Notes: generated by a model not told the origin, from the sequence alone. Positions 11,721 to 18,974 are shown, counted from the first letter of the stretch. The stretch: 64,000 bases of DNA from an uncultured Dehalococcoidia bacterium (GCA_951813535.1 OX638345.1:571029-635028); one strand, 5' to 3'. Numbers and translations: made by a program.

Positions 11721-11777
11721 GGCTGGCCAATACGCTCAGCCGGTGATTGGCGGGGCGTGAAGGCGGATGATCGCGCC

Positions 11778-12962
11778 ATGAGCGACGCAGTCGCGGACAA
11801 GTTGCTGGGCCGGTTGGCCGGCCTGCTGGAGTGGCACGGGTTGGGATCGGCCGCGCTCACGCCACGGCCACGCGGCGGCCGCCTGACCGGGGAAGATGCC
11901 GCCGAGGTCGCCGCCCTGCTCGACCAACTGATGGAAGCGGACGCCGGGCTGGAGCAGGGGCAAAGCCCCAGGAGCTTGATCTTTGGGAACGGCTGCTTCG
12001 CCATCGGTCGGTATCCGGAGGCGTACACCGTGTACCACGGTATGGCCGCACAGCGCCCCGACGATTTCGCGGTCAGGTTCAACCTGGGCGTGACCTGCCT
12101 GCGCCGTAGAAGGCCGGCAGAGGCGGTCGACGCCCTGAGCGCGGCGCTGGAGCTCGACGCCGTGGCTGCGCCGGCTTATTACCAGCGGGGAAACGCCCGG
12201 GATGATGTGGGTGATCCTGAGGGCGCGTTGGCCGATTACGCGACGGCGATTGACCTGGACCCGCTCTATCTGCAGGCCTACTACAACCAGGGAATCGTGT
12301 TGAACAACCTGGGCAGGTACGCGGACGCCATTGCCGCCTTTGACGCGGTGGTGACCCTGCGACCCGACATCTCCAACGCTTACCTGAACCGGGGAGTGGC
12401 GCGGGACGAACTGGGTGACGGAGCGGGCGCGGTGGCCGACTACGACGTTGCGCTCCGGCACAACCCGGACAACGCCGACGCTCGCTTCAACAAGGCGCGT
12501 GTCTGTTACCGGCTGGGACGATACGACGACGCGGTGACGAACTACACCGCCGCCATCGAACTACGCCCCGATGACGTCGAGGCGATCAACAACCGCGGGC
12601 TGGCCCACGACGCACGGGGAAAATACGCGGAGGCCATCGCCGACTACGACGCGGCGCTGCACCTGCGGCCGGACTTCGCGGAGGTGTTGAGCAACCGGGG
12701 CGCCGCACGGGAAAGCCTGGGCGATACCGAGGCGGCGTTGGCCGACTACCTGGAAGCGCAGAAGGTGGTGCCGGAATTTGCCGCCGCTTACTACAACGCA
12801 GCGCGGCTGTACGCCGACCGGGGAGATATCCCCAATTGCGCGGAGCAGTTGTCGGAGGCGGTGCGTCTCCAGCCGGGGCTTTATGCCGAGGCCGAGTCTG
12901 ACGAGATGCTGGGCTGGGTGCTGGATCTGTCGCGTTTGCGGGATGCGCGGGAGGGTGGCTAA
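11778..12962 (+). CDS. TPR-repeat protein
   Basis: This soluble protein of about 394 residues is almost wholly built of tetratricopeptide repeats, about nine units from residue 75 onward. They follow the consensus A-Y-x-N-R-G-x-A-x-x-x-L-G-D (for example AYYQRGNARDDVGDPEGAL). The ATG at 11778 is taken as start; a GTG at 11757 in the same frame is possible. No signal peptide or catalytic domain is seen. Its role is presumably as a protein-interaction scaffold. The stop is 8 nt from the convergent plsY-like gene. Confidence 0.85.
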   Translation: MSDAVADKLLGRLAGLLEWHGLGSAALTPRPRGGRLTGEDAAEVAALLDQLMEADAGLEQGQSPRSLIFGNGCFAIGRYPEAYTVYHGMAAQRPDDFAVRFNLGVTCLRRRRPAEAVDALSAALELDAVAAPAYYQRGNARDDVGDPEGALADYATAIDLDPLYLQAYYNQGIVLNNLGRYADAIAAFDAVVTLRPDISNAYLNRGVARDELGDGAGAVADYDVALRHNPDNADARFNKARVCYRLGRYDDAVTNYTAAIELRPDDVEAINNRGLAHDARGKYAEAIADYDAALHLRPDFAEVLSNRGAARESLGDTEAALADYLEAQKVVPEFAAAYYNAARLYADRGDIPNCAEQLSEAVRLQPGLYAEAESDEMLGWVLDLSRLRDAREGG

Positions 12963-12970
12963 AAGCCACC

Positions 12971-13711
12971 TCACGAGGGGCGCGGGGTCTCGCTCTCGTC
13001 GTCGGGCGGGAGAACGTCCAGCAGGATTGCCTCTTCGCTGAGACGGGCGGCTTCGCCGAGGACTTCGGGCCGGTCTTCGATGAGGATGTCGGGGTCGACC
13101 GCCGCAACCTTGTCCGGGCGGTGGTCGGCATGGGTGAGGATGTTGTGGGTCACGACCACCATGGCCAGCGCGGTCAGTCCGAACATGACGGACCAACTCT
13201 GTCCGTGCAGCATGTTTAAGGCCAGCATCGCGCCGAAACCCAGGAAAATGCCAAGGGAGGAGCGGAACGCGGAGCGACGGAACAGCAGCACCGTAACGAT
13301 CCCAACGGCAATGCCCACCAGGATGTACCAACTGAGGTAGGCCAGCGACACGCCGACCAGGACGACCATCCCGTCGCCGCCCTTGAACCCGGTGAATATG
13401 CTCTTCCAGTGGCCGGCGATGGCAGCCGCACCCGCGACAATGGCGGCCAGCTCGGGCACGCCCAGCATCCAGGCCACGACCACGGCCACCGCGCCCTTGA
13501 TGACGTCGCAGGCGAAGACCAGCATGCCGCGTCGCCGTCCCACGTGCCAGAAGACGTTGGCGGTGCCGGCGCGCCGGCTGCCGGTGGCGAAGATATCGAC
13601 GCCCTTCAGGCGAGCCACCAGGTAGGCGAAGGGAATGCTGCCCAGGAGGTAACCGACCAGCGCCGCCGCGAGCACGCGGGGGATCAGGGGCAGAAGATCG
13701 TCAAAAAACAT
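12971..13711 (-). CDS. plsY: PlsY-like glycerol-3-phosphate acyltransferase, divergent motifs
   Basis: The 246-residue membrane protein has about six to seven hydrophobic segments and the three PlsY motif regions in order: GSIPFAYLVARL (about residue 26), GSRRAGTANVF (about 47) and GHWKSIFTGFKGGDGM (about 100-115). PlsY transfers acyl from acyl-phosphate to glycerol-3-phosphate to start phospholipid synthesis. The motifs are unusual: the common GSGNxGATN is GSRRAGTAN, and the common GGKG is GGDG. Substrate specificity may therefore differ, or this may be a paralog. The C-terminus carries an extra acidic tail. The ATG at 13711 is chosen; a TTG at 13723 is possible. It is the last gene of a same-strand run with a methyltransferase and a Tes-like radical SAM gene. 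Confidence 0.75.
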   Translation of the reverse strand: MFFDDLLPLIPRVLAAALVGYLLGSIPFAYLVARLKGVDIFATGSRRAGTANVFWHVGRRRGMLVFACDVIKGAVAVVVAWMLGVPELAAIVAGAAAIAGHWKSIFTGFKGGDGMVVLVGVSLAYLSWYILVGIAVGIVTVLLFRRSAFRSSLGIFLGFGAMLALNMLHGQSWSVMFGLTALAMVVVTHNILTHADHRPDKVAAVDPDILIEDRPEVLGEAARLSEEAILLDVLPPDDESETPRPS

Positions 13712-13767
13712 CAAAAAGAGCAATCAGCCGGTCGGGTGGGCGAGAATGATAGCACAGCGGGTTGCAA

Positions 13768-14559
13768 TCAGTACGGATTGCGTCCCAGGTATAACCAGTA
13801 ACCGATCTGGCCGCGAGACACGGATTGCTCCACTCGATCCAGCAAGCCGGGGGCGGATGCGGCCCAATCCGCACTGAGCTCGGACGAGGGCATGCCCACG
13901 GCGCCGCCCAGGGCCAGCTTGCCCCGCAGGTCGGCCAGCAGCGTGACCACTTCGGCGCTGAGGTCCTCCGGTTCGCCCGTGATGAAGCCGGAACGCTCCA
14001 GGAGGCGTTGATATCCGTCGGCGGGCAGGGCGTCGGTGAGGCAGAGCATCATGCCCACGGTTCCGTCCAGCTCCGGCGGCAGGCTGCCGGGCTCGACCGT
14101 CACATCGGAGATGCCGACCACGCCACCCGGCCGGAGCAGACGGCGCACCCGCGAGATCGCGGCTTCCTTGTCCACGAACAGGCTGGTGGCGCACTCGATG
14201 ATCACGGCGTCAAACGCGCCCTCGCGGAAGGGTGGTATCTCGGCATCGCCTCGCACGAAGGCGACGTCCGCGGGCACGGGCTGATCCAACGCGCGCCGTC
14301 GGGAGGAAACCGAGGCTTCCGATCCCAGCTCCAAACCCACCACGTGGCAGCGGAACACCCGGGAGATGGCCGTGGCGCTGGTTCCCAGTCCGCAGGCGAG
14401 GTCCAGCACGCGCCAGCCGGCCCGCAATCCCATGGCGCGTCCCAGCCGGTTGGTGGCGCGCAGCCCGCCGGGATGCAGGCTGTCGCCCAGGATCAGGCGG
14501 GCCAGTTCCGACGAGTAGAGATCGGCGCAGCAGATCTTGGCGGCATAGGTATCGAGCAT
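13768..14559 (-). CDS. Class I SAM-dependent methyltransferase
   Basis: The 263-residue protein has the Rossmann methyltransferase motifs: VLDLACGLGTSA (motif I, about residues 51-62), VVGLELG (acidic motif II), FDAVIIECATS (motif IV) and LLRPGGVVGISD. The N-terminus carries CCADLYSSELARLILGDS, which is not part of the general fold and looks like a subfamily signature. The gene starts 12 nt after the radical SAM gene ends and precedes the plsY-like gene by 56 nt. Co-transcription suggests a shared pathway, possibly membrane-lipid modification (inference). UbiE-like or arsenite-methyltransferase-like roles cannot be excluded. Confidence 0.8.
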   Translation of the reverse strand: MLDTYAAKICCADLYSSELARLILGDSLHPGGLRATNRLGRAMGLRAGWRVLDLACGLGTSATAISRVFRCHVVGLELGSEASVSSRRRALDQPVPADVAFVRGDAEIPPFREGAFDAVIIECATSLFVDKEAAISRVRRLLRPGGVVGISDVTVEPGSLPPELDGTVGMMLCLTDALPADGYQRLLERSGFITGEPEDLSAEVVTLLADLRGKLALGGAVGMPSSELSADWAASAPGLLDRVEQSVSRGQIGYWLYLGRNPY

Positions 14560-14571
14560 CGAACTCGAGCC

Positions 14572-16032
14572 TTAAGCCTGTTCTGCCCGGTCACGTGAGA
14601 CGGAAAGGATCTTCTGCCGGCCCTGCTCCATGGTCAGCTGCTCACGGATCTGTTCGCGGTAGCCCACGGAGTTGTAGGAGCAGAAGGGGATGGCGCGACC
14701 GTCGGGCGTAAGGATGCCGACGCAGCACTTCATCACCTGCTTGACGTTGAAGGTCCAGGCGTCCAGGAAGTCCTTGATGGCGATCTGGAAGACGTGGTCC
14801 TTGAGATGGTTGATCTCGTAGGGAAGGTCGAGGCCGGGTCCGCAGGCGCACTCGAACTGCCCGGCGGTCTGCTCGGTGCCGGCCACGGCGGAGGCGGACC
14901 ACAAGCCTTCCAGTGCGGTCTGGATGTCGGCGGCGTTGGGTGGCTTGGGCAGGGCGCGGTTGGTGATGTAGTCCAGGTACTGGTCGATGTCCAGCAGGCG
15001 AGGCAGCGGCGTGACGGTGTCGCCATCCACGAACAGGTAGGAGTTCACTTGGCAGGTGGGGAAACAGCACGGGACCGGAACGAAATCCTCAAGGACAAAG
15101 CGGCCGTCGGTCTGTTCCACGATGCCGTGGATGATGTCAGGGATGGTGACGCGGGTCATGGGGTCGAAATCGATGTGGCGGCCCACATGGGTTACGGGCT
15201 GGAAGACGACGCCGCGCACCGCCGGGTGCTTCAGGCCGAACTCGACGATGCTGCCCACCTCGTCGGTGTTCACGTCGCGCTCGATGGCGGCGACCAGCAC
15301 GGCGGTCATGCCGGCCTCGGCCAGGCGGTCCAGGGCACGCATTTTGGTGTCCAGCAGGGGCTCGCCGCGGATGGTCAGGTAGGTCTCCTCGCGGAGGCCG
15401 TCGAACTGGAAGTAGACCACCGGGTCCAGGGCCTGCATCTGCGCCAGGAACCGGTCGTCGCGGGCCAGGCGCACGCCGTTGGTGTTGATCATCACCTGGC
15501 GGATGCCTCGGTCCTTAGCAGCCTGGATCATCTCGGGGAGCTGGGGATGGATGGTCGGCTCGCCGCCGCTGAACTGGATGACTTCGGGATCGCCCTCGAT
15601 CTCCACGAAGCGGTCCAGCATGGACTCGACCTGCTCCAGGGTGAGGTTGTAACCGGCGCCGGCGTTGGCGAAGCACACCGGGCAGTCGAGGTTGCAGGCG
15701 GTGTTGACCTCGATGAGGGCTAGGCAGATGTGCTGCTTGTGCTCAGGGCAGAGGCCACAGTCCAGCGGGCAGCCGTCCTTGACCTCGGTGCTGAAGTCCA
15801 GGGGGATGGTGCCGGGTTTGTTGAACCGGATGCTGCCGACGTACATTTCGGCGTCGGAACTGATGATGCCCTCAAACCAGCCGTGCTCGGGGCAGCGCTT
15901 GCGCATGTAGACCTTGTTATCGCGGATGATGACTTGGGCGTCGATGACGGTTTTGCATTCGGGACAGATGGATCGGGTGAGTTCGTGGAAGATATAGTCG
16001 GCGTCCTGCTTTATGCGGTTGGTGGAAGACAA
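14572..16032 (-). CDS. Tes/MJ0619-like radical SAM protein
   Basis: The 486-residue protein has an N-terminal rubredoxin-like Cys segment (CPECK near residue 19 and RCPEHGWFEG near 45). An auxiliary cysteine cluster follows (CPLDCGLCPEHKQHIC, about 88-103), then the radical SAM motif CNLDCPVC (about 113-120), and further C-terminal cysteines (CCFPTC, CACG, CC). This arrangement matches the MJ0619-type family that includes archaeal tetraether synthase, which couples lipid tails by radical chemistry. The TTG start at 16032 is supported by AAGGAG. The gene is followed within 12 nt by a methyltransferase and then by a PlsY-like acyltransferase, so a role in unusual membrane-spanning or branched lipids is an attractive inference. 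Other radical methylations remain possible. Confidence 0.75.
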   Translation of the reverse strand: MSSTNRIKQDADYIFHELTRSICPECKTVIDAQVIIRDNKVYMRKRCPEHGWFEGIISSDAEMYVGSIRFNKPGTIPLDFSTEVKDGCPLDCGLCPEHKQHICLALIEVNTACNLDCPVCFANAGAGYNLTLEQVESMLDRFVEIEGDPEVIQFSGGEPTIHPQLPEMIQAAKDRGIRQVMINTNGVRLARDDRFLAQMQALDPVVYFQFDGLREETYLTIRGEPLLDTKMRALDRLAEAGMTAVLVAAIERDVNTDEVGSIVEFGLKHPAVRGVVFQPVTHVGRHIDFDPMTRVTIPDIIHGIVEQTDGRFVLEDFVPVPCCFPTCQVNSYLFVDGDTVTPLPRLLDIDQYLDYITNRALPKPPNAADIQTALEGLWSASAVAGTEQTAGQFECACGPGLDLPYEINHLKDHVFQIAIKDFLDAWTFNVKQVMKCCVGILTPDGRAIPFCSYNSVGYREQIREQLTMEQGRQKILSVSRDRAEQA

Positions 16033-16045
16033 TGCGGCTTACTCC

Positions 16046-16801
16046 TTATTCCGGAGGGTTGGTCAGTTGGTTGCCATTCTGCACTGGGACATATGTGACG
16101 CCGAAATATTTGAGCTTAGAATCTGCGCTCACTTCAATGTCAGTCCCGGCCACTATGGGAACTGCCTGGCCGTTGAGGTTCCGTGGCTGGTACTTTTGGA
16201 GAATGATGCCCAAAATCTCGGCCCGGTCTGCGGCGCGGTACACGTCTTCATCGCCCACACGGTACGATGCTTCCACTACCAAGCAAAAGGGCTGGTGGTC
16301 GGATTCCCGGCGAGCGTAGATGAAAACGTCGGCGCGACTGAGGTTGCGACGCTGGTCGGGTGTGATCACGCCGGCCAGTGTGGCCTCGCTGGCGATGCGT
16401 CTCAGCTCCCGCTTGGGAATTAGCTCTTCATCTACCAAGCCGAGAGCTTCGGCAAAGATTTCGGGATTGCGCTCGCAGTAGAGTTCCAACCCCCAACCTT
16501 TCAGAGTGGAAACGTCCTGATTGGTGCGATCCTGGGCAGCAGTAAGTCTGGCAATAGCCTCGCGGATTTCGGCCATCTCTTTGTCGTGCCGGGCATCGCG
16601 CTCCACATTGGCGGCGTGCATTTCGGCGATGGCGCGGGCATTTTCAGCAACGGCTTTTTCTGTTCGTTCCTGCCCAGCCCGCATTTCGGCGATGGCGCGG
16701 GCATTTTCAGCCGACAGTTCAGCAGTCTGTTCCAGCAAGGCCCGGATTTCGGCAATGGCCATGGGTCCCGATTCGTCAGTTGGGTTAGCTGGCGTGTTCA
16801 T
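16046..16801 (-). CDS. Coiled-coil protein with predicted PD-(D/E)XK nuclease-like domain
   Basis: The 251-residue protein begins with a long coiled coil (about residues 15-105) that contains two copies of AENARAIAEM. A C-terminal alpha/beta domain follows, with ADVFIYARR and FCLVVEASYRVGDEDVYRAADRAEIL. The D...E-x-S arrangement resembles the DUF3782/COG5493 group of predicted nucleases, in which Lys of the PD-(D/E)XK core is often replaced. Such proteins are frequent lone genes in Chloroflexota and cyanobacteria. It lies 27 nt downstream of an orphan DNA methyltransferase and 13 nt upstream of the radical SAM gene on the same strand. Pairing with the methyltransferase is possible but unproven. 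Confidence 0.6.
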   Translation of the reverse strand: MNTPANPTDESGPMAIAEIRALLEQTAELSAENARAIAEMRAGQERTEKAVAENARAIAEMHAANVERDARHDKEMAEIREAIARLTAAQDRTNQDVSTLKGWGLELYCERNPEIFAEALGLVDEELIPKRELRRIASEATLAGVITPDQRRNLSRADVFIYARRESDHQPFCLVVEASYRVGDEDVYRAADRAEILGIILQKYQPRNLNGQAVPIVAGTDIEVSADSKLKYFGVTYVPVQNGNQLTNPPE

Positions 16802-16828: not shown

Positions 16829-17662
16829 TCATGCTATCAGATTTGTCTGGTCAGGGACGCCGCAACCTGCCAGCCGCCGCCGCATCACGGCCACCGCTTC
16901 CGGGTTGTTGTCAATCAGCGTGAATTCCCGTCCCTCCCGGCATGCCGCCTCGCCCAGCGTGCCGCTGCCGGCGAAGCAATCGAGCAGGCGGTCGCCCGGG
17001 TTGGAGTGGATACGAACGATGCGGCTGACTATGGCCAGGGGCTTCTGCGTCGCGTAGCCGGTCTTCTCTCTGCCGGTGACGATGGTCTGCCACCACACGT
17101 CGGTGGGCGTCTTGCCCCGGGCGGCCTTCTCCGGTCCAACGAGGCCGGGGGCCATGTAGGGGATGCGGTCCATGGCGTCGTAGTTGAAGGTGTAGTTGCC
17201 CGGGTCTTTCGCGTACCACAGGATGTTGTCGTGCTTGGCCGGCCAGCGGGTCTTGGGCCGTCCGCCGTAGTCGTAGGCCCAGATGATCTCGTTAATGAAC
17301 GAGTCGCGGCCGAATATCTCGTCCAGCATCACCTTGCAGTAGTGGACCTCGCGGTAGTCGACGTGGAAGAAGAGGCTGCCGTGGTCGTCGAGCACCCGGT
17401 ACGCCTCCTCCATGCGCGGGCGCAGGAACCCGATGTAGTCGTCGAAGATGTCGGCGTACTCGCTGGACCCGACGACCTGCGTGCGGTAGCGGCGGCCCTG
17501 GAACCCGGTGCGGTCGCCGTCGGGATCGGGCGTTACCCTGATGCGGGTGCGGGACTGCGACTTGCCGGTGTTGAAGGGAGGATCGACGTAAATCAGCTGG
17601 AACGCGCGGTCGGGCAGCGTCCGCAGGACATCCAAATTATCGCCGAGTATAATCTCGCCCAT
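16829..17662 (-). CDS. Site-specific DNA methyltransferase (N4/N6-amino type)
   Basis: The 277-residue enzyme has motif IV (DPPFNTGKS, about residues 28-36) before motif I (DCFAGSGTLGEAA, about 228-240), the order of beta-class amino-methyltransferases. The start at 17662 has a clear GGAGG upstream; the longer in-frame extension lacks one. The middle region (KHDNILWYAKD and TGYATQKP) is typical of adenine- and cytosine-N4 enzymes. No canonical restriction enzyme is adjacent, so it is an orphan methyltransferase unless the coiled-coil nuclease-like gene 27 nt downstream is its partner. Its recognition sequence cannot be read from the protein. Confidence 0.88.
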   Translation of the reverse strand: MGEIILGDNLDVLRTLPDRAFQLIYVDPPFNTGKSQSRTRIRVTPDPDGDRTGFQGRRYRTQVVGSSEYADIFDDYIGFLRPRMEEAYRVLDDHGSLFFHVDYREVHYCKVMLDEIFGRDSFINEIIWAYDYGGRPKTRWPAKHDNILWYAKDPGNYTFNYDAMDRIPYMAPGLVGPEKAARGKTPTDVWWQTIVTGREKTGYATQKPLAIVSRIVRIHSNPGDRLLDCFAGSGTLGEAACREGREFTLIDNNPEAVAVMRRRLAGCGVPDQTNLIA

Positions 17663-17744
17663 CCCGTGCCTCCGATGCGAGGCCGCATTATCCCGTGCGG
17701 CAATATCGACCGTCAAACCGCCGTTGACGTAACAGGTGAGATCA

Positions 17745-18974
17745 ATGACCCAGAACGATGGAACTCGGAACAGTCATCCTGTCGGCCCGCTGGTCGGCGT
17801 CAAGGTGCTGGACCTGACGCAGATCATGGCCGGCCCCATGTGCACCATGCTGCTGGCCGACATGGGCGCCGACGTCATCAAGGTCGAGCGTCCCGGCACC
17901 GGCGACGACACGCGGCGCATGGGCTCGCGCCTGACCCACGACATCGCCGGCGGTTTCCTGGCGCTGAACCGCAACAAGCGCAGCATCGCCCTGGACCTGC
18001 GCTCGGACGAGGGCAAGGCGGTGTTCCGGCGGATCGCGGAAACGTCGGACATCGTGGTGGAGAACTTCCGGCCCGGCGTCATGGACCGCCTGGGCCTGGG
18101 GTACGAGGCGCTGGCGGAGATCAACCCCAGGCTGGTGTACGCCAGCATCTCCGGGTTCGGCGGCACCGGCCCGTACCGCAACCGGGGCGGCTTCGACCTG
18201 GTGGCCCAGGGGATGAGCGGCCTGATGTCGATCACCGGCTTCCCGGGCGGGCCGCCGGCCAAGGTGGGAGTGCCCATCACGGACATCGGCGCGGGCAGTT
18301 TCACGGCGTTTGGCATCCTGGCGGCGTACATCCACGCCCAGCGGACTGGTCAGGGTCAGCAGGTGGACGGGTCGCTGCTGGAGGCTGGCATAGCGTTCAC
18401 GGTCTGGGAGTCGTCGGAGTACTTCGCCAACGGCGAGATACCCGGGCCCTTAGGGTCGGCCCACCGGGTCAACGCGCCCTATCAGGCCCTGCGCACCAGC
18501 GACGGTTACATCAACATCGGCGCCGCATCGCAGCCGACGTGGGAGCAGTTCTGCCGCGCCATCGGGCAGGATGCGCTCATCGAGGACGAGCGATACCTGG
18601 AACCCAACGACCGCAAGGCCCGGGAGACCGAGTTGGCCGAACTCTTGGAGGGCATCCTGGCCGAGCACACCACGGCGCACTGGATGGAGCAACTGGAAGC
18701 CGCCGGCGTGGTCGCCGGCCCCATCTACGACATGGAGCAGGTGTACAGCGACGAACAGGTGCTCGCCCGCGACATGAAGGTCACACTGGACGACCCCGAG
18801 CTGGGCCAACTGAATCACATCGGGGTTCCCGTAAAGTTGTCGGCAACGCCGGGAAGCATCCGCACCCGTGGACCGGCGCTGGGTCAGCACAGCCGCGAGA
18901 TACTGGCCGAGCACGGTTACAGCGCAGCAGAGGTCGACGGGCTGGTTGAGGGAAAGACGGTCGGAGCAGCGTAG
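17745..18974 (+). CDS. Type III (CaiB/BaiF) CoA-transferase
   Basis: The 409-residue protein has the family start pattern VLDLTQIMAGPMCTMLLADM followed by GADVIKVE. It also has NKRSIALDL, the VVENFRPGVMDRLGLGY block, and the GVPITDIGAGSF segment that carries the catalytic aspartate. The family transfers CoA between carboxylic acids through an aspartyl-CoA intermediate. The substrate cannot be told from sequence. The start at 17745 is preferred over GTG 17736 because AGGTGAG precedes it. It is divergent from the DNA methyltransferase with an 82-bp gap, and its 3' flank contains a strong terminator. Confidence 0.93.
   Translation: MTQNDGTRNSHPVGPLVGVKVLDLTQIMAGPMCTMLLADMGADVIKVERPGTGDDTRRMGSRLTHDIAGGFLALNRNKRSIALDLRSDEGKAVFRRIAETSDIVVENFRPGVMDRLGLGYEALAEINPRLVYASISGFGGTGPYRNRGGFDLVAQGMSGLMSITGFPGGPPAKVGVPITDIGAGSFTAFGILAAYIHAQRTGQGQQVDGSLLEAGIAFTVWESSEYFANGEIPGPLGSAHRVNAPYQALRTSDGYINIGAASQPTWEQFCRAIGQDALIEDERYLEPNDRKARETELAELLEGILAEHTTAHWMEQLEAAGVVAGPIYDMEQVYSDEQVLARDMKVTLDDPELGQLNHIGVPVKLSATPGSIRTRGPALGQHSREILAEHGYSAAEVDGLVEGKTVGAA

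Follow-up and report, generated by a model that had tools for sequence, protein, structure and literature searches.

A two-gene module of a Tes/TrsS-superfamily radical SAM protein and an ArsM-like methyltransferase in an uncultured Dehalococcoidia bacterium

The window, a 64,000-nucleotide stretch of DNA that is part of a 4.38-Mb single-contig genome of a marine member of the Chloroflexota whose closest named relatives are SAR202/Dehalococcoidia MAGs, encodes what is, judged from its sequence, a two-gene module: a radical SAM protein (rSAM) of the Tes/TrsS superfamily followed by an ArsM-like methyltransferase. The module is widespread and testable and is without an assigned function. The original prediction had joined these two genes to a neighboring PlsY-like gene as a cluster for membrane-spanning or branched lipids; the three ORFs probably do not constitute such a cluster. 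Tentatively favored instead is a reading in which the rSAM and the methyltransferase act on a substrate containing a thiophilic element, perhaps an organoarsenic compound.

All three predicted ORFs were confirmed on the minus strand, in the predicted order and spacing. They and their flanking genes are as follows.

11757-12962, plus strand: TPR-repeat protein; convergent flank of a CaiB-[pair]-PlsY-TPR synteny block, context outside the pair
12971-13723, minus strand: PlsY-fold acyltransferase-like membrane protein without Arg45 and Lys104; adjoins the pair, evolutionarily separable
13768-14559, minus strand: class I SAM methyltransferase, 263 aa; conserved K8, C10, C11, C123, and C173
14572-16032, minus strand: rSAM of the Tes/TrsS superfamily, 486 aa, from Pfam, NCBIfam, and PDB matches and an AlphaFold model; N-terminal rubredoxin-like, N-terminal FeS, CxxxCxxC, and C-terminal FeS sites, with extra conserved cysteines 103, 322, 323, and 397
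16046-16801, minus strand: uncharacterized protein, 13 nt upstream of the rSAM, found here only in the nearest relatives; context
17736-18974, plus strand: CaiB/BaiF CoA-transferase; divergent flank of the same synteny block, context

The rSAM gene starts with TTG, preceded 9 nt upstream by AAGGAG, and its CxxxCxxC motif is C113/C117/C120. The PlsY-like gene likewise starts with TTG, and an in-frame ATG at 13711 is equally plausible. The rSAM and methyltransferase genes are separated by 12 nt, and the methyltransferase and PlsY-like genes by 44 nt, or by the 56 nt of the original prediction if the ATG is used. Pfam matches include Radical_SAM (3e-20) and an HMPTM zinc ribbon (2e-19) in the rSAM, Methyltransf_25 (2e-15) in the second protein, which bears out its identification as a SAM methyltransferase, and G3P_acyltransf (PF02660; 9e-30, 104 bits against a cut-off of 24.1) in the third; PDB searches likewise bear out all three family assignments. 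Chance ORFs are ruled out because the ORFs are conserved across dozens of genomes. In the nearest relatives only, a DNA methylase (16829-17716) accompanies the uncharacterized protein between CaiB and the rSAM.

Based on its sequence and modeled structure, the rSAM is a Tes/TrsS-superfamily enzyme that has the Tes fold and Tes metal ligands and lies outside Tes proper. A PDB sequence search ranks 7tol, the solved structure of Tes, first (2e-88). The AlphaFold model, with a mean pLDDT of 68.9 and weak local detail, matches 7tol (GDGT-MAS/Tes) with a Z of 39.3 over 402 residues, the next fold scoring 18.4, and Foldseek also returns Tes as the top match (5e-34). Identity to the MJ0619 Tes is 34% over the aligned structure, and alignment to MJ0619 shows that all of the Tes metal ligands are kept, at the rubredoxin-like site, the FeS clusters of both termini, and the RS cluster: C23, C26, C47, and H50; C88, C92, and C95; C113, C117, and C120; and C327, C436, C437, and C451. 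The best NCBIfam match is TrsS (NF045646; 367 bits, cut-off 490), followed by Tes (NF045702; 351 bits, cut-off 450), both below cut-off. Only one of 400 Chloroflexota genomes has a protein, G338, that passes the Tes cut-off.

Met439 and Tyr459 are completely conserved in 1000 archaeal Tes sequences (PMC9433317). In the rSAM, these residues are replaced by Lys420 and Ile440, and nearly all pair rSAMs have K/Q/R/T at the first position and I/V/F at the second; MJ0619 and G338 keep both. Tyrosine at the 459 position is present in only 3 of 95 rows, including MJ0619 and G338, all of which are without either partner gene. Loss of the tyrosine alone is weak evidence against Tes, since Tyr459 variants of Tes are still active (PMC9433317). 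Cysteines 103, 322, 323, and 397 are present in nearly all pair rSAMs and are absent from MJ0619. In a tree obtained by a quick search, which has several long branches and includes a single characterized Tes, the window rSAM belongs to an 86-row clade (SH-aLRT 99), outside of which lie MJ0619, G338, TrsS, and haloarchaeal proteins. The predicted tetraether-synthase type thus stands with respect to fold and metal ligands but not with respect to membership in Tes, as the protein falls below the cut-offs, has both invariant residues replaced, and belongs to a clade apart from MJ0619 and G338. Absence of the second lipid pocket of Tes had been considered as a further argument and was dropped because the FeS-C inter-cysteine segment is of similar length (109 versus about 117 residues).

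The methyltransferase is nearest to the NCBIfam DVU_1556 family (122 bits, cut-off 155) and scores 62 bits against the ArsM model, whose cut-off is 263 bits; an arsenite methyltransferase model is second best in every pair methyltransferase scanned. Among 85 aligned methyltransferase rows, duplicates included, Cys123 and Cys173 are present in 84 and the Cys10-Cys11 pair in 81. Cys123 and Cys173 align with the As(III)-binding cysteines of ArsM, which are Cys156/Cys206 in human AS3MT (PMC3877260), and the N-terminal CC aligns with the CC of a canonical arsenite methyltransferase encoded elsewhere in the source genome (G000:C1:186056-186841; L143/L153). Neither the CC nor the Cys123 position is found in three other methyltransferases encoded by this genome. 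Within the order, a canonical ArsM is found in 17 of 20 pair genomes versus 60 of 127 others, a difference that is confounded by relatedness and is not proof. The top matches in a fold search are other class I methyltransferases, within 1-3 Z units; ArsM is not among the best 50 fold matches listed, and phosphoethanolamine, MitM, and cyclopropane-synthase methyltransferases are at least as near to it in fold as ArsM is.

The third protein is a variant PlsY, as predicted. His92 and the glycine-rich loop are kept, and Ala40-Thr41 of PlsY reads Thr-Ala. In the glycerol 3-phosphate (G3P) clamp of PlsY (Ser35, Arg45, Lys104, and Asn180), the serine is kept, Arg45 and Lys104 are gone, and the position of Asn180 is uncertain; every same-site orthologue reaching these positions has Trp or Phe for Arg45 and Asp for Lys104. 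Changing these clamp residues to Ala in Aquifex PlsY removes >92% of activity (PMC5700162). Because Arg45 and Lys104 are replaced, the PlsY-like protein may not use G3P. The Asp-for-Lys104 variant is widespread in the order, also off this locus (L172-L176), and probably does not bind G3P normally.

By synteny, the PlsY-like gene is part of a CaiB-PlsY-TPR block that is distinct from the pair and independent of it. Among relatives, the distance between the methyltransferase and PlsY-like genes ranges from 22 to 4854 nt. PlsY and TPR genes are neighbors without a working pair in genomes G474, G446, and G538. A CaiB gene accompanies them in G474 and G538, and none was detected in the stretch from G446. 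G474, which is of the same genus as the pair-bearing G497 and G504, has a remnant resembling the methyltransferase C terminus (L169 7044-7640), and G538 has a decayed rSAM N terminus with stop codons (L171 8441-9300). Since PlsY-TPR persists without the pair and remnants are found in G474 and G538, the pair was lost at least two times while PlsY stayed. The predicted gene order is conserved in relatives, but the proposed three-gene lipid operon was rejected on this synteny, in which PlsY lies up to 4.9 kb away, and on the decay of the pair beside a kept PlsY.

The gap between the rSAM and methyltransferase genes has a median of 12 nt over 35 loci, and the pair is found in SAR202, in other Chloroflexota, and on haloarchaeal and mycobacterial plasmids. 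The one mycobacterial example is a Mycolicibacterium plasmid (56.8% identity). On this Mycolicibacterium vanbaalenii plasmid (L078), the pair neighbors CcdA, a disulfide oxidoreductase, a second radical SAM protein, a binding protein of the PhnD/SsuA type, and a deiodinase-like protein. Two haloarchaeal plasmids (L080 and L082) carry the pair; these may explain an earlier puzzle, the Tes homologues of haloarchaea without GDGTs (PMC8941075). A true TrsS locus (L087) encodes TrsS (543 bits) and a DVU_1556 methyltransferase (183 bits), both above cut-offs, together with a C_GCAxxG redox protein and a DVU_1553-type CoA ligase; neither of the latter two was found at SAR202 loci. Among family rows with enough flank, the rSAM has a methyltransferase downstream in 67, an Lgt-like protein upstream in 20, and both in none, and all but a few have one or the other. 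The partner label changes 6 times on the tree versus 26 times for shuffled labels. The Lgt-like protein, of the prolipoprotein diacylglyceryl transferase family, is upstream in place of the methyltransferase in L042, L057, L079, L081, L088, L089, and L094, and also in L098, L100-L103, L105, L106, L109, L117, L124, L125, and L130. An ArsP/SaoE-type permease is present as well in the L088/L089/L100/L124 subclade of these rSAMs.

At 16 of 36 pair loci outside SAR202, there is a MerA/dihydrolipoyl dehydrogenase-family flavoprotein no more than 5 kb away, compared with 0 of 20 Lgt-type and 0 of 30 SAR202 loci; the count includes a weak match at L087, the flank at some loci does not extend to 5 kb, and there are near-duplicates among the 36. 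The position and orientation of the flavoprotein relative to the pair vary. The mercury(II) reductase MerA is above its curated cut-off in L096 and L097, with a C-terminal LSCCA, and is partial in L095. CcdA/DsbD and DsbA-like proteins are observed near some pairs. No enrichment of arsR, arsC, or an arsenite pump was detected beside pairs, and no arsenic operon was found there. In SAR202, the pair loci sit amid housekeeping genes. The idea that the methylation is lipid chemistry, as originally proposed, is disfavored by the ArsM cysteine signature and by the MerA-type flavoprotein often found near the pair elsewhere.

In the tentatively favored thiophilic-element reading, Cys123 and Cys173 of the methyltransferase, with the N-terminal cysteine pair, would hold the element, for which As(III) or an organo-arsenic or organo-selenium compound is the likeliest candidate, and the methyltransferase would methylate it. 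The rSAM would make a 5'-deoxyadenosyl radical for C-H activation, perhaps on a lipid-like chain, and would then form a carbon-heteroatom bond. Tes works by means of 5'-deoxyadenosyl radicals and by transiently forming a C-S bond with its C-terminal cluster (PMC9433317). The division of labor would resemble that in ArsL plus ArsM and ArsS plus ArsM, where a radical SAM enzyme makes a C-As bond or C-As product and ArsM methylates arsenic (PMC8552651), but with a Tes-fold enzyme. Besides this precedent, the reading draws on a pairing that is tightly spaced and kept even on plasmids and at the true TrsS locus, on an rSAM that by its scores and its Met439 and Tyr459 positions is not Tes, on the ArsM-type cysteines, on the MerA/Lpd neighbors, and on the separability of PlsY. 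Against it are the lack of enrichment of arsenic genes, the housekeeping surroundings in SAR202, the low ArsM score and a fold no nearer to ArsM than to other methyltransferases, the canonical ArsM that the source genome already has, and the absence of the N-terminal CC from the true TrsM. Neither ArsL nor ArsS is known to have a Tes fold. In addition, the rSAM remains a match to a lipid enzyme in fold and ligands, and an Lgt-like lipid enzyme adjoins some of its relatives. The more specific proposal that the Tes-fold rSAM makes a C-As (or C-Se, C-Te, or C-Hg) bond on a lipid-like chain while its ArsM-like partner methylates the element is doubtful.

Nearly as likely as the metalloid reading is a Trs-type pathway, in which the pair would build or modify a small molecule or cofactor connected with redox or selenium metabolism; its substrate would be neither a membrane lipid nor a metalloid. 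TrsS and DVU_1556 are the best NCBIfam matches of the two proteins, the true TrsS locus has its C_GCAxxG redox protein and CoA ligase, and flavoprotein disulfide reductases, CcdA/DsbD, and DsbA-like proteins lie near some pairs; however, both proteins fall below the respective cut-offs, the SAR202 pair is not flanked by genes for the CoA ligase and the C_GCAxxG protein, and TrsS has no known reaction. A modification of lipid tails other than joining, with the methyltransferase acting on lipid, would suit the Tes-like fold of the rSAM, the proximity of the methyltransferase fold to cyclopropane-synthase and phosphoethanolamine methyltransferases, and the Lgt-family neighbors of some related rSAMs, but is unlikely, as the methyltransferase is absent where Lgt is the partner and its conserved cysteines are not expected in a lipid C- or N-methylase. 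Tetraether synthesis by the rSAM is unlikely, and quite unlikely is the full bacterial tetraether or diabolic-acid cluster, in which the rSAM would join tails, the methyltransferase would add branches, and PlsY would load the headgroup side. Tes is the top fold, the four metal sites are all conserved, and a role in making brGDGTs has been proposed for Tes homologues of bacteria (PMC8941075; PMC11868695), yet the Tes cut-off is missed, Met439 is replaced along with the less telling Tyr459, the clade is separate, PlsY is separable and without Arg45 and Lys104, and the methyltransferase has ArsM-type thiols.

Branched GDGTs serve as palaeothermometers, and the attribution of their source to Chloroflexota rests on BLAST matches to Tes, assigned in brGDGT surveys at E < 1e-30 and identity of at least 30% (PMC11868695). 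The window rSAM would very likely pass such a filter (34% identity, E 2e-88 versus MJ0619) despite having lost residues that do not vary among archaeal Tes; an ArsM-like methyltransferase or an Lgt-like protein is the partner in its closest relatives. The Chloroflexota "Tes homologues" behind this attribution probably include the family of the window rSAM, and such calls need a filter for Met439/Tyr459 and the family cut-off. If the organometalloid reading were true, the pair would represent a new biosynthetic route, a third path based on a radical SAM enzyme and an ArsM-type enzyme, and marine arsenolipids would have a candidate producer in SAR202, a common deep-ocean clade.

In comparison with Tes/GDGT-MAS (MJ0619), the rSAM has the full-length fold, the rubredoxin-like C-C-C-H site, the N- and C-terminal FeS cysteines, and the radical SAM motif, and it differs in its sub-threshold score (351/450 bits), Lys420 and Ile440, four extra cysteines, its own clade, and a methyltransferase partner. 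TrsS, a radical SAM (seleno)protein family, and DVU_1556 (NF045667) are the best-scoring families of the two proteins, and the true TrsS locus has the identical two-gene partnership. The pair differs from this system in its scores (367/490 and 122/155 bits), the TrsS row retains Met at the 439 position unlike the window rSAM, the TrsS-locus methyltransferase is without the N-terminal CC, and the CoA ligase and C_GCAxxG neighbors do not adjoin the SAR202 pair. The PlsY-like protein resembles PlsY in its above-cut-off PF02660 match, His92, and glycine-rich loop, and differs in the loss of two of four residues of the G3P-phosphate clamp and in Thr-Ala for Ala40-Thr41. The differences from ArsM are the score (62/263 bits), the absence of an ars operon around the pair, and the Tes-type rSAM partner; shared with ArsM are the As-binding cysteine positions and the N-terminal cysteine pair, and shared with ArsM plus ArsL (arsinothricin) or ArsS (arsenosugar) is the two-gene logic of a radical SAM enzyme and a methyltransferase.
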